Origin: Gammaproteobacteria bacterium
GTDB lineage: Bacteria; Pseudomonadota; Gammaproteobacteria; Steroidobacterales; Woeseiaceae
Length of the DNA stretch: 64,000 bases
Reading direction: 5' to 3'
NCBI GenBank assembly: GCA_024639825.1
Contig: JAHEGH010000001.1
Location: 62,001-126,000, forward strand
Below are positions 19,525-22,312 of the stretch, one piece after another (the stretch's first letter is position 1; every line of letters begins with the position of its first letter). The notes under the pieces are model-generated. The model ran no database searches, was not told the origin of the DNA, and saw nothing but the letters and a program-made list of their open reading frames with translations. A program made the translations under genes and the position numbers.

Positions 19525-21320
19525 TACGCTGGTCTCTTGATCCTGAGCGTGCGGATGCGATCCGCGAGTGTGGTTGGGCGCACGCCCAGCAATTCTGCTG
19601 CGCCACCCTTGCCCGACACCTTCCAGTCAGCCTGCTCAAGTGCCCTTATCAGGTTGGTTTTCTGGAACTCCCGCATTTCTTTTTCGGTCAGTGGCCCTTC
19701 GCCGCGCGGCTCGACCGGCGCCGTGCGTTCTTCGTCGAATTTTAGTTCCGGCATGGACAGATCCAGGCGCAGCGACTTGCCGGGGGACAGAATAACGGCG
19801 CGCTCAATCACGTTCTTGAGCTCGCGCACATTACCGGGCCAGCTATAGGATTTCATGTTGGCGACCTGCGAGCGCGTGAGCGTCAGCGCTTCGCGGCCAA
19901 AATCCTTGCAGGTCTGCTCAAGGAAGTGCTGTGCAAGCTGCACGATGTCGTCACCACGCTCGCGCAGTGGCGGTACGTCCACCGGGAACACGCTTATGCG
20001 ATAGAAGAGATCCTCGCGGAACTCGCCATCGACGATCAGGCGCTCGAGATCGCGATTGGTCGCCGCAATGACACGAACGTCGACGGACTTCGTGATGTCG
20101 TCACCAACCCGCTCGAATTCACTCTCCTGCAGGACACGCAGCAACTTGCCCTGCAACTCGAGAGGAATTTCGCCGATTTCGTCGAGAAAAATCGTACCGC
20201 CATCCGCAAGCTGAAATCGTCCAATTCGATCCCGGTGCGCACCTGTGAAGGCGCCCTTCACGTGACCGAAGAACTCACTTTCAAACAGTTCCTTGGGAAT
20301 AGACGCGCAGTTCACTTTGACAAGCGGCCCATCAGAACGAGGGCTTCGAGCGTGGATTTCCCTCGCGACGAGCTCTTTGCCGACGCCCGACTCGCCCTGT
20401 ACGAGTACGCTGGCCGGCGTCTCCGCCACGGCTTCAATGCGTTTCAACATCCGTCTCAGAGCCTGGCTGGTTCCAACAATACGGCCGAAATTCAGTGCGA
20501 CGTTGACTTCCTCGCGCAGGTAGTCGCGTTCGTTCTCCAGTTCCTCACGCAGGCGGGCGTTTTCGGCGAGGGTCCGCCGCAGCTCTCGTTCGGCACGATT
20601 TCTCTCAGTGACGTCTTTGGATGCCACGAGCATTCTGTCGACGTGGCCATGTTCGTCGCGATGTGAGATTGCCGACATGATGAGGTCGATTGGCTGGCCA
20701 TCCTTGGCAACCATCTGGCGTTCAAGGTTGTTGAAGTCTCCTTCGGCGATCAGCTCACGCAAACCACCGTCGGCGTATTTCTTCTGGTCAGCGATGCTCA
20801 TGAAATCCGTAACCGGGCGGCCCAGCACTTCGTCGCGCGTGAATCCCAGTTTACTGAGCCAATGGTCCGTGACCGTGATGATCAGACCGTCCCCATCCAC
20901 CGTGTGCAGCATGGCTGGCGTCGATCGATACAGGGTGCGGTACTTGAAGTTCGCGCGTGCCTGGTCGGACAGCTCCGAATACATGGCGACTGTCCGCAGA
21001 TATTTGCCCTCAGCATCGTACTCGACAAATGCATTCGTGACGCACTCAACAATCTCGCCCGAAGACGTGACGAATGACACGGGCTTGTTCTCAAGCTTGC
21101 CGCGCCTGCGCAATGCCGGACGTAATTCGTGCACGATACACTCGGCCGTTTCCTCGGTCGCGAATTCCTCCGGACGGTGCCCAACCATGTCCTCGAGTTC
21201 ATAGCCAAGGCGCTCCAGCATGGCGTCATTGACGTCAAGATAGGCGCCGTCTTCGGCGATCGACGTGGTCATAACCGGCGCCTTGCGAAACAACCACTCG
21301 TAATCGTCCTTTGAAATCAT
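19524..21320 (-). CDS. Sigma-54-dependent transcriptional activator with two PAS domains
   Basis: This 598-residue bacterial enhancer-binding protein has two PAS domains (about 8-120 and 128-245), a short coiled coil, an AAA+ domain (about 280-515) and a Fis-type helix-turn-helix (about 566-590). Walker A is GESGVGKE (309-316), the sigma-54 contact loop GAFTGA (356-361) is intact, and Walker B is IFLDEIGE (377-384). There is no receiver domain, so it senses its signal through the PAS modules rather than by phosphorylation. An 18-bp inverted repeat begins 12 bases before its ATG, suggesting autoregulation as well as control of the divergent small gene. It leads an operon with TVP38 and dacB. 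Confidence 0.93.
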
Positions 21321-21332
21321 CGGCGCATGATA

Positions 21333-21385
21333 TACGGAATTTCGTAAATTGTCCTACGATTTTTCGTAATTTACGAAATTCCGTA
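21333..21385. promoter_or_regulatory. 18-bp perfect inverted repeat, candidate enhancer for the sigma-54 activator
   Basis: The arms TACGGAATTTCGTAAATT (21333-21350) and AATTTACGAAATTCCGTA (21368-21385) are exact reverse complements separated by 17 bases. Each arm is itself nearly symmetrical around TTTCGTAAA, and a third TTTCGTAA box fills the spacer. The site sits about 75-125 bases upstream of the predicted transcription start of the small gene at 21513, a normal distance for an enhancer, and directly upstream of the activator's own start codon. No nearby coding sequence explains the repeat. Confidence 0.75.
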
Positions 21386-21431
21386 ATTTCTATTTTTGAG
21401 TTAAGCCTCTGTTTTATAAGCATTTAGCAAG

Positions 21432-21449
21432 TTGGCACAAGAAATGCAT
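21432..21449 (+). promoter_or_regulatory. Sigma-54 (-24/-12) promoter
   Basis: The sequence TTGGCACAAGAAATGCAT matches the RpoN consensus TTGGCAC-N5-TTGC with one mismatch. The essential GG (21434-21435) and GC (21446-21447) are separated by exactly 10 bases. The predicted start is near 21459, about 54 bases before the 94-aa small gene. The divergent sigma-54 activator and the inverted repeat at 21333-21385 complete the expected arrangement. Confidence 0.8.
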
Positions 21450-21512
21450 TAAGGAAGACAGAATGTATTACCTCTGAATCCCAGAATAACCGAATTTTTA
21501 AAGGACACACTG

Positions 21513-21797
21513 ATGAAAGCCAAGAACATTGAAAACAATCTCGCGCTGGTAGGCGCGCTGATCGTTTTAGTTGGCGTTTCGTTTGCCGCCGAGGACGCCC
21601 TCGGCTTTGAAGCCGCTGACGTAACCGCCACGGCCGTTGCAATTCACAACGTAGCCGCCAGCACCACAAGCGGTGCGGCGAAAGCTAATGCCGACGCGGC
21701 AGCGCTGGCTGCCAAATCCCTGGCACGCGAAAACTGGCTCGACCTTGATATCAAGCTTGACGACCACAGGTCTACGCTGGTTGCAGACAAGAAGTAA
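21513..21797 (+). CDS. Small secreted or membrane-tethered protein under sigma-54 control, unknown family
   Basis: This 94-residue protein has a hydrophobic N-terminal segment (about 8-26, ending VGVSFAAEDALG), followed by an alanine-rich stretch (AADVTATAVAIHNVAAST) and a charged tail ending LVADKK. The N-terminus could be a signal peptide or an anchor. AAGGA seven bases before the ATG supports the start. I do not recognise the family. It is the only gene between the sigma-54 promoter and the strong terminator at 21947-21977, so it and its structured 3' region appear to be the target of the divergent activator. Confidence 0.7.
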   Translation: MKAKNIENNLALVGALIVLVGVSFAAEDALGFEAADVTATAVAIHNVAASTTSGAAKANADAAALAAKSLARENWLDLDIKLDDHRSTLVADKK

Positions 21798-21977
21798 GGT
21801 CTGACAAGAACCCCCCTTCGGTTGCGACCCGAGCAGGTATCTCTCTCCCCCGAAGACCTGGTCGCGCTTCCGAAAACAGAGCCCGATGGATTGCGGCTCT
21901 TACGGACCTGGAAGGTCCGGCGGCATTCCCCCAAGCCGCTAACTATGGGCGCCGGCTCGCCGGCGCCCTTTCTTTTT
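21798..21977 (+). ncRNA. Candidate structured RNA or 3'-UTR small RNA with GGA and C-rich loops
   Basis: The 150 bases between the small gene's stop and the terminator can fold into a series of hairpins. AGAGCC/GGCTCT (21878-21900) has the loop CGATGGATTGC. CGGACC/GGTCCG (21903-21919) has the loop TGGAA. GCGGC/GCCGC (21920-21939) has the loop ATTCCCCCAA. CAGGT/ACCTG (21834-21860) has a pyrimidine-rich loop containing CCCCC. An outer pairing joins GCGACC (21824-21829) with GGTCGC (21860-21865). Two loops expose GGA, the core of CsrA/RsmA sites; two expose CCCCC, which could pair with ribosome-binding sites. The region could be an sRNA released from, or cotranscribed with, the small gene. The folding is by eye. 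Confidence 0.4.
21947..21977 (+). terminator. Strong intrinsic terminator
   Basis: A 10-bp perfect GC-rich stem, GGGCGCCGGC (21947-21956) and GCCGGCGCCC (21959-21968), has a 2-base spacer and is followed by TTTCTTTTT. It ends the transcript of the sigma-54-driven small gene and its structured 3' region. The stem could also help end the convergent PGPGW gene, but the T-run is only on the plus strand. Confidence 0.9.
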
Positions 21978-21994
21978 GTCCGCATTGTTCGTGC

Positions 21995-22267
21995 CTAGTC
22001 ATCGGCAACCCTGTCCCGATGCGCTTCGGCGCGAGAATTTAGATGATTTGAATTGCGGTTACTGATCGACTTGCGCAGGCGCTTGAGCCATGCCCGTGCC
22101 CAGGTAAACTCGATACTCAGAATCGCAAGCCCCACAGGGATTACAATCAATGCCGGACCCGGCGTAACCAGCATCACCACACCGACCGCAAGAACCGTAG
22201 CGCCTACAACGCCGATTATGATCCGTCGTGCGGTCTTGTATGTAAGATGCGCGGCTCGCCTGATCAA
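21995..22267 (-). CDS. PGPGW-family small transmembrane protein
   Basis: This 90-residue protein has two hydrophobic segments (RIIIGVVGATVLAVGVVMLV and the segment after TPGP) and the family signature LVTPGPALIVIPVGLAILSI, then FTWARAWLKRLR. PGPGW proteins are small inner-membrane proteins of unknown function. The start is a TTG with AAGGA seven bases upstream. The C-terminal 25 residues are polar (NSNHLNSRAEAHRDRVADD) and probably cytoplasmic. It stands alone, divergent from the exported protein at 22313. Confidence 0.78.
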   Translation of the reverse strand: MIRRAAHLTYKTARRIIIGVVGATVLAVGVVMLVTPGPALIVIPVGLAILSIEFTWARAWLKRLRKSISNRNSNHLNSRAEAHRDRVADD

Positions 22268-22312
22268 TCAAAGATCCTTCGCTTTTTCCGTGCTGTGTCG
22301 TAGCCTTGGTGC

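Follow-up and report, generated by a model that had tools for sequence, protein, structure and literature searches.

Features of the locus

The window is the whole stretch of DNA that was analysed (64,000 nucleotides), and it contains a compact locus with a gene for a sigma-54 activator, a divergent gene for a small protein, an operator and a promoter between them, and a structured RNA at the 3' end that is followed by a putative intrinsic terminator (Table 1).

Table 1. Features of the locus and their positions in the window
Feature	Positions	Strand	Remarks
Sigma-54 activator PAS-PAS-AAA+-Fis, 598 aa	19524..21320	-	divergent from target gene; Pfam, GAFTGA
Operator dyad 1, ACG-N6-CGT	21334..21345	.	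5' arm of inverted repeat; overlaps possible activator -10
Operator dyad 2, ACG-N6-CGT	21356..21367	.	starts 22 bp after dyad 1
Operator dyad 3, ACG-N6-CGT	21373..21384	.	starts 17 bp past dyad 2; forms 3' arm of inverted repeat
Sigma-54 -24/-12 promoter TTGGCACAAGAAATGCA	21432..21448	+	GG 21434-21435, GC 21446-21447
Ribosome-binding site AAAGGA	21500..21505	+	read from sequence
Putative exported or membrane protein, 94 aa	21513..21797	+	signal-like N-terminus; C-terminal LDLDIKL...STLVA
Core of the 3' RNA with four hairpins (covariance model R1)	21810..21941	+	model match 2.1e-14; covariation
Hairpin P1, inner stem CAGGT/ACCTG, C-rich loop	21834..21860	+	C run 21847-21851
Hairpin P2, GAGCC/GGCTC, GGA in loop	21879..21899	+	helix 4, 82.2% of cells paired
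Hairpin P3, CGGACC-TGGAA-GGTCCG, CsrA-like GGA loop	21903..21919	+	helix 5, 98.5% of cells paired
Hairpin P4, GCGGC-ATTCCCCCAA-GCCGC, C-rich loop	21920..21939	+	C run 21928-21932; helix 6
Intrinsic terminator P5	21947..21978	+	hairpin 21947-21968, 9 G-C pairs, then T-run

The locus was compared with orthologous loci, which gave a set of 71 from different genomes: 33 from the genus of the window, 15 from other genera of its family (f1) and 23 from five other families (five in f2, one in f3, one in f5, seven in f6 and nine in f15). The small protein served to pick 32 of the genus loci, whereas the other 38 and locus L126 were picked by the activator alone, so that the promoters and operators of these loci form an independent test. 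A further set of 20 f15 loci was likewise picked by the activator. Rows removed before counting were L035 and L036 (on the same contigs as L005 and L010), L098 (its contig ends inside the operator) and L002-L004 (weak matches in the window's genome).

The activator

The initial annotation described a PAS-PAS-AAA+-Fis activator without a receiver domain. The Pfam models PAS_9 and PAS_4 each match two stretches of the protein, together with Sigma54_activat (5.6e-71, 238 bits against a cutoff of 20.2) and AAA_lid_14, and no receiver domain is among the 16 Pfam families listed. The Fis-type end is matched by HTH_8 at residues 549-590, but below the cutoff (E 0.0011, 19.1 of 22 bits); this region is conserved across 37 aligned proteins. 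The translation contains GAFTGA, the motif of the AAA+ sigma-54 interaction domain of sigma-54 enhancer-binding proteins (bEBPs). It is conserved in the activator alignment, whose sequences had been chosen for GAFTGA. Among the best 25 of 44 NCBIfam matches, the AAA+ domain is of the standard type, with NorR and NifA as the top-scoring models; the best match, NorR, attains 372 of 476 bits, and no equivalog cutoff is reached. The PAS domains would be expected to respond to a small ligand or to the redox state. The predicted structure of the PAS pair matched many known PAS folds (LOV-HK, DosP, FixL, NifL-NifA), and this comparison indicated no ligand.

The N-terminal 273 aa of the activator were matched in 143 of 296 genomes of the order, representing 31 of 68 genera and six of the 16 families sampled (f1, f2, f3, f5, f6 and f15). 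Beyond the order, a sample of 369 genomes of the class yielded no convincing orthologue; three matches there were partial (about 130-210 residues) within open frames of 1249-1638 aa and were not counted as orthologues. The activator of genome G236 (C115:3183) is 75% identical to that of the window despite its assignment to a different family, f15, and its contig is perhaps misbinned.

A sigma-70-like -10 element that overlaps dyad 1 is found at 21320-21355. The ATG of the activator gene follows directly, with almost no leader, and the activator may be leaderless and autoregulated. This was the single candidate of the promoter scan, which is close to chance (one found against 1.5 expected).

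Operator and promoter

The region between the divergent genes was initially described as an 18-bp perfect inverted repeat. Its arms (21333-21350 and 21368-21385; 18 nt) are indeed 100% complementary, but they are the outer pair of three 12-bp dyads. The repeat as one regulator site or hairpin was rejected, since relatives keep three dyads at near-fixed spacing. Three exact dyads are present in 57 of the 71 loci, where they are spaced by 22-23 and then 17-18 bp; eight loci have two, five have one and one has none. In the sequence downstream, the frequency of the exact motif is 0.027 per 170 nt. Of the 71 loci, 68 have the triple in register with no more than three of 18 positions off, whereas the control stretches had at least six of 18 positions off in 71 of 71. 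In L102, L132 and L133 it is the third dyad that is out of register, and three sites with at most one mismatch occur at other spacing. In each of the 20 further f15 loci three or more dyads are present if one mismatch is allowed, but three exact dyads occur in only three; the in-register triple (at most two positions off) is present in 18, and in L193 and L194 the third dyad is again displaced.

The exact triple pattern occurs in 85 of the 296 genomes of the order, in 87 copies, and a control pattern in none. All 85 genomes also have the activator. The activator contig carries 85 of the 87 copies, and all but one of these lie within 45 bp of the start of the activator match; the exception lies at 298 bp because the activator match there begins at residue 129. 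One copy off the activator contig, in G105, is located at a contig end that carries the same kind of locus. The other stray triple, L173 (G200:C446), has a -24/-12-like element and stands beside a different PAS regulator, which is cut by the contig end; its other neighbour is a gene resembling an NrtA/CmpA-type ABC transporter binding protein. This arrangement hints at a paralogous regulator that may use the same operator. The genome of the window contains the exact triple once. The idea of further operators in this genome was rejected: matches to the single-dyad pattern with two mismatches, among those listed, number 70 + 65, fewer than the 95 + 114 of the reversed control. The pairing of operator and activator appears near-exclusive and the switch dedicated, and a relation of one activator to one target is suggested.

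The -24/-12 promoter with correct GG-N10-GC spacing, as expected of a sigma-54 promoter, was already part of the initial annotation, and the element is present in 71 of the 71 orthologous loci and in all 20 further f15 loci. That annotation had made its proposal depend on conservation of the repeat and of the -24/-12 element in relatives, and both are kept (triple 68/71, promoter 71/71). The occurrence of activator, dyads and -24/-12 element together in 71 loci strongly supports the view of a self-contained sigma-54 signal-response unit. Joint conservation, which the initial annotation proposed to look for with the small gene included, extends to activator, operator and promoter, but by our reading the open reading frame (ORF) is absent from one genus, g23 (7/7 loci). 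Judged from the promoter sequence, transcription would start near 21459 and would depend on RpoN. Promoter and terminator together suggest that the small protein and the 3' RNA lie on one transcript. The terminator scan as a whole was near chance (six found against 4.7 expected).

Where the RNA ends, relatives such as L018, L027 and L032 carry a near-invariant insert, GAGACCGCTCCGTGTCGGATCGGCCCGCTG, which the copy in the window lacks. It was found in 19 of 89 genomes, once in each except G041 (twice). By eye it sits just 3' of the RNA, with the exception of G049, whose contig starts there. A pattern search for the three-way terminator insert retrieved 19 of 48 rows, among which L023 looks false. 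The insert looks as if it would make the terminator a three-way junction, and it is possibly a protein or ligand site.

The small protein

The 94-aa protein had been assigned to no known family. This assessment agrees with the searches, in which Pfam gave no match at E<=1 and NCBIfam a single match far below its cutoff (13.1 of 636 bits). At E<=0.01 the protein was matched in 43 of 99 genomes, its own included, all of them from the genus of the window, the weakest of these matches being doubtful. The dN/dS of the ORF against four near relatives is 0.17-0.22. In 24 pairs that include 45-aa forms, taken from chosen groups of equal length and with dS above 1 in several, it is 0.07-0.32, and the third position is the most changed in 24 of 24. 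The ORF is coding and under purifying selection.

A script that accepted ATG or GTG starts with a ribosome site and a hydrophobic N-terminus found an ORF in 69 of the 71 loci, with lengths of 33-131 aa, and in 14 of the 20 further f15 loci. The latter count includes L180, which was judged spurious, and the ORF of L182, visible by eye, was missed by the script. The identity of the small protein to those of other genera is 21-35%, so little of the sequence is conserved outside the genus. The C-terminal segments of the f1 proteins and those of other families match with an hhalign probability of 77% (E 2.1e-5, 38 columns), which marks them as weakly related. The mature N-terminus in f2, f6 and parts of f15 reads (D/E)E(I/V)VVTAPR or similar, a segment that we take to resemble a TonB box; in several other families the DEIVVTAPR segment stands directly after the signal sequence. 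DUF1127 is absent from the Pfam families listed for 34 proteins of the family and 18 of other families. Among the same proteins no Pfam family is common to several, each listed match being confined to one member. The predicted structure consists of one low-confidence helix (pLDDT 69, pTM 0.26).

A cysteine motif resembling a lipobox lies near the end of the hydrophobic segment in five loci of f15 genera (L184, L185, L132, L193 and L182), and the envelope location of the small protein may vary. In alignment A5, 15 of the 18 small proteins of other families end in RG; those of L108, L110 and L111, which are short and not in A5, do not.

The 3' RNA

The covariance model R1 was built from 12 sequences, without that of the window. 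At E <= 0.01 with strict filters it matched 73 of 139 genomes, namely 68 of the 73 genomes of the window genus (own included) and five of other genera in the family; no match was obtained outside the family among the 139 genomes. Of the five genus genomes without a match, two (G001 and G005) carry divergent forms to which the model fits weakly (L126, E 0.0017; L023, E 0.025). The other three, G029, G049 and G103, are drafts of 80-84% completeness in which the activator is missing too.

The covariation alignment contains 61 matches, 60 of them distinct, from 73 sources; the 12 sources without a match are 11 loci of other families and L124. The genus alignment A1 is without five of the 32 loci, L012 (which could not be cut), L019, L023, L026 and L028. 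Over 29 pairs, 91.9% of cells are paired and compensatory changes occur in 22 of the 29, in an alignment that was fitted to the R1 model and so leans towards the structure. On none of five measures does any of 500 shuffles come up to the alignment, and the signal is lost when the partners are slid. P1 (helix 3) has a compensatory change in six of six pairs and 95.6% of cells paired, and P4 (helix 6) is mostly invariant with 97.4% of cells paired. The fold of 21795-21985 has a z of -4.2 against shuffles. R1 matched none of the 11 loci of other families, and across families the RNA is recognisable by its layout and its C-loops, not by its sequence.

C-rich loops are what stands out in this RNA. 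Over the 620 nt that follow each of the 71 promoters, runs of C5 or longer number 179 in total and runs of G5 or longer 20. Predicted hairpin loops contain 134 of the C5+ runs against 23.9 in dinucleotide shuffles, and every one of the 71 loci has one; C-rich hairpin loops were also found in 18 of the 20 further f15 loci (L186 and L195 are without). Under a stricter loop definition, 70 of all 91 loci have C5 loops, 98 in total against 11.8 in shuffles (8.3-fold). The enrichment of GGA loops is mild, 1.7-fold (125 against 71.8, in 59 of the 91 loci). The main loop is typically UCUCUCCCCC in the window genus and often CUCCCCC in other families; the loops of the window read UCUCUCCCCC and CCCCC, where the cuckoo / alpha-r14 RNAs repeat CCUCCUCCC. 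A C-rich loop motif is also known from the CcsR RNAs. The P3 loop reads CAGGA(A/T/C)G in several relatives, a form that resembles a CsrA site, and is without GGA in several genus members, e.g., L006, L007, L011, L013 and L021.

No Rfam family reached its gathering score in window positions 21300-22300 or in 10 loci. The weaker matches are suhB/mmgR at 21913-21983 (20 of 41 bits) and two alphaproteobacterial sRNAs, SorX at L132 (E 4.7e-4) and ar14 at L095, one of the 10 loci scanned (E 5.8e-4, 37.7 of 58.8 bits). The miRNA families that Rfam matched to the inverted repeat seem to be artefacts of its palindromic sequence.

The genus g23 of family f15 offers a natural experiment in which RNA function is separated from protein function. 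All seven of its activator-bearing loci (L104, L130 and L176-L180) lack the ORF by our reading, yet they keep the operator, the promoter and the C-loop RNA. The script ORF of L180 starts 138 nt after the promoter, in the terminator region, and is judged spurious. The RNA after the promoter comprises about 150-175 nt, is read as noncoding, and can be aligned among the g23 loci. Its fold has a z of -9.1 in L104, -5.8 in L130, -3.9 in L177 and -4.9 in L178, and the C runs lie in hairpin loops.

Candidate mRNA targets

The motif GGGGGAG occurs 4-10 nt before an ATG 15 times in the genome of the window against five for the reversed pattern, and with weaker contrast in two relatives (16 against 6; 9 against 7). 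These counts are confounded by ordinary Shine-Dalgarno use, and several of the ATGs open only very short frames. Three such genes, named from a reading of their translations, recur: one for a PreA-like enzyme in G000 (the draft genome of the window) and G018, and two shared by G000 and G058, for an MFS transporter and for an aldehyde dehydrogenase; their recurrence could be explained by relatedness alone. A gene of G058 read as TonB-dependent-receptor-like carries GGGGGAGAGA, which complements the loop UCUCUCCCCC over its whole length.

Proposed function and alternative explanations

The sigma-54 switch itself is almost certainly real. Coding selection on the ORF and covariation in the RNA fall within one putative transcription unit, which is the pattern of a dual-function transcript with a predicted function of the RNA. 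The initial annotation named a single small protein plus a structured 3' RNA as the target; both are present, but the RNA was underrated and seems to be a main output. The product would be at least as much the C-rich-loop RNA as the small protein: genus g23 has the RNA and no ORF, and where ORFs occur their sequences differ widely. Most loci retain the ORF, and in these the small protein may therefore be the chief product.

The reading that we consider fairly probable, from sequence comparison and by analogy, is a dedicated one-component switch that drives a small exported protein and a trans-acting RNA of the anti-Shine-Dalgarno type with C-rich loops. The tandem-PAS activator would bind the three phased dyads in the intergenic region and, once a signal arrives, contact the sigma-54 polymerase by looping and fire the single -24/-12 promoter; both steps are expected from what is known of bEBPs. 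One transcript of about 520 nt would encode the predicted exported protein and end in the C-rich-loop RNA, which is perhaps freed by RNase cleavage. The CUCCCCC-type loops would then pair with G-rich ribosome-binding sites (GGGGGAG) and repress translation, as suggested by known C-loop RNAs. The sub-threshold Rfam matches to ar14 and SorX favour this reading. Against it count the failure of R1 to match beyond the family, the displaced third dyad in three of 71 and two of 20 loci, the lack of any Rfam match at gathering score, the 70 of 91 loci under the stricter loop definition and the weak contrast of the G-rich ribosome-site counts.

A simpler possibility is that the exported protein is the sole functional product and the 3' RNA an element of mRNA stability and termination. 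Purifying selection on the ORF, the secretory-type ORF that the script recognises in 69 of the 71 and 14 of the 20 loci (with L180 spurious among the 14) and the C-terminal similarity between f1 and other families (hhalign 77%, E 2.1e-5) argue for it. We regard it as unlikely in view of g23, which has no ORF in seven of seven loci yet retains operator, promoter and C-loop hairpins, of the C-rich loops in 71 of 71 loci, which would be superfluous in a stability element, and of the variation of the protein in sequence and length (33-131 aa; 21-35% identity to other genera). The GGA loops raise another option, in which the RNA would act as a protein decoy that titrates CsrA/RsmA. Both P2 and P3 of the window carry GGA, P3 has the CAGGA(A/T/C)G form in several relatives, and GGA loops exceed the shuffles (125 against 71.8, 59 of 91 loci). 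The 1.7-fold enrichment is small beside the 8.3-fold of C5 loops, however, and several genus members, among them the five named above, have no GGA in P3, so that a decoy is quite improbable. Most doubtful of all is a routine activator-target pair, in which the target would be a common sigma-54 regulon gene of the NifA/NorR type whose 3' UTR is noisy. The standard AAA+ domain with its best scores for the NorR and NifA models (best 25 of 44 matches) would fit such a pair, but no equivalog cutoff was reached among these matches, the triple operator occurs almost only at this locus, and the covarying RNA and the noncoding g23 form contradict it in part.

An extension of the dual-output reading, which we hold to be a speculative and rather improbable one, is that one sigma-54 transcript links control of the envelope with control of translation and retunes nutrient uptake at two levels, as a system so far undescribed. 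The exported protein, with its TonB-box-like DEIVVTAPR in several other families, would act on TonB/outer-membrane uptake, the C-rich-loop RNA would silence mRNAs with G-rich ribosome sites, transport genes included, and the tandem-PAS sensor would thereby shut down or re-tune nutrient uptake.

If the dedicated switch with an RNA output is real, it represents a self-contained RNA-based module of sensor, operator, promoter and RNA in six of the 16 sampled families of one order, to which Woeseiaceae belong. The three-site operator with its nearly fixed spacing would also offer a clean model for the geometry of sigma-54 activation.

Comparison with known systems

The initial annotation knew of no described system with this content. 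This holds for the exact combination in the literature searched, but analogues have been described, namely CIN1 and sX13. No publication on this locus and no described sRNA of Woeseiaceae were found in that literature, most subscription journals being outside its reach.

In the accessible text on the alphaproteobacterial CIN1 locus (ccaF1-CcsR1-4 of Rhodobacter sphaeroides), a single promoter precedes a small-protein gene followed by sRNAs from the 3'-UTR, and an intrinsic terminator closes the unit (PMC10253847, PMC8625941). The layout of one promoter, small protein, 3' RNA and terminator is thus common to CIN1/CcsR, as far as the accessible text describes it, and to the window locus. CIN1 has an RpoHI/RpoHII promoter and a DUF1127 RNA-binding protein, whereas the window locus has a sigma-54 promoter with its own PAS activator, a predicted exported protein and other hairpins. 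By the DUF1127 criterion the window locus, as judged from its predicted protein, is not a CIN1 member.

NfeR1 (alpha-r14) of rhizobia consists, in the accessible part of its description, of three hairpins, each with an unpaired anti-Shine-Dalgarno motif CCUCCUCCC; these motifs silence mRNAs redundantly, and the RNA has LsrB as its activator and NtrC as its repressor (PMC10746234). That part describes it without a sigma-54 promoter or a linked ORF, and the motif of the window RNA is CUCCCCC-like. The sX13 RNA of Xanthomonas (115 nt) is likewise described, in the text available, without an ORF or a dedicated sigma-54 activator, and Rfam gave no link between it and the window RNA in the window region and 10 loci. 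By analogy with what is accessible on sX13 and NfeR1/alpha-r14, the window RNA would work as they do, through C-loop pairing. An sX13-type RNA represses mRNAs with G-rich motifs through its loops, and for the window RNA the G-rich ribosome sites described above are leads to such targets.

Control of an sRNA by a bEBP and a -24/-12 promoter is known from LuxO-Qrr, GlrR-GlmY and CbrB-CrcZ, in which LuxO, GlrR and CbrB are receiver-domain response regulators with partner kinases. The window unit differs from these in its one-component PAS sensor, in the small protein on the putative shared transcript and in its C-rich loops. It would thus join sigma-54-driven sRNAs and C-rich anti-Shine-Dalgarno RNAs, which are known separately, with a one-component sensor in the place of a two-component system.
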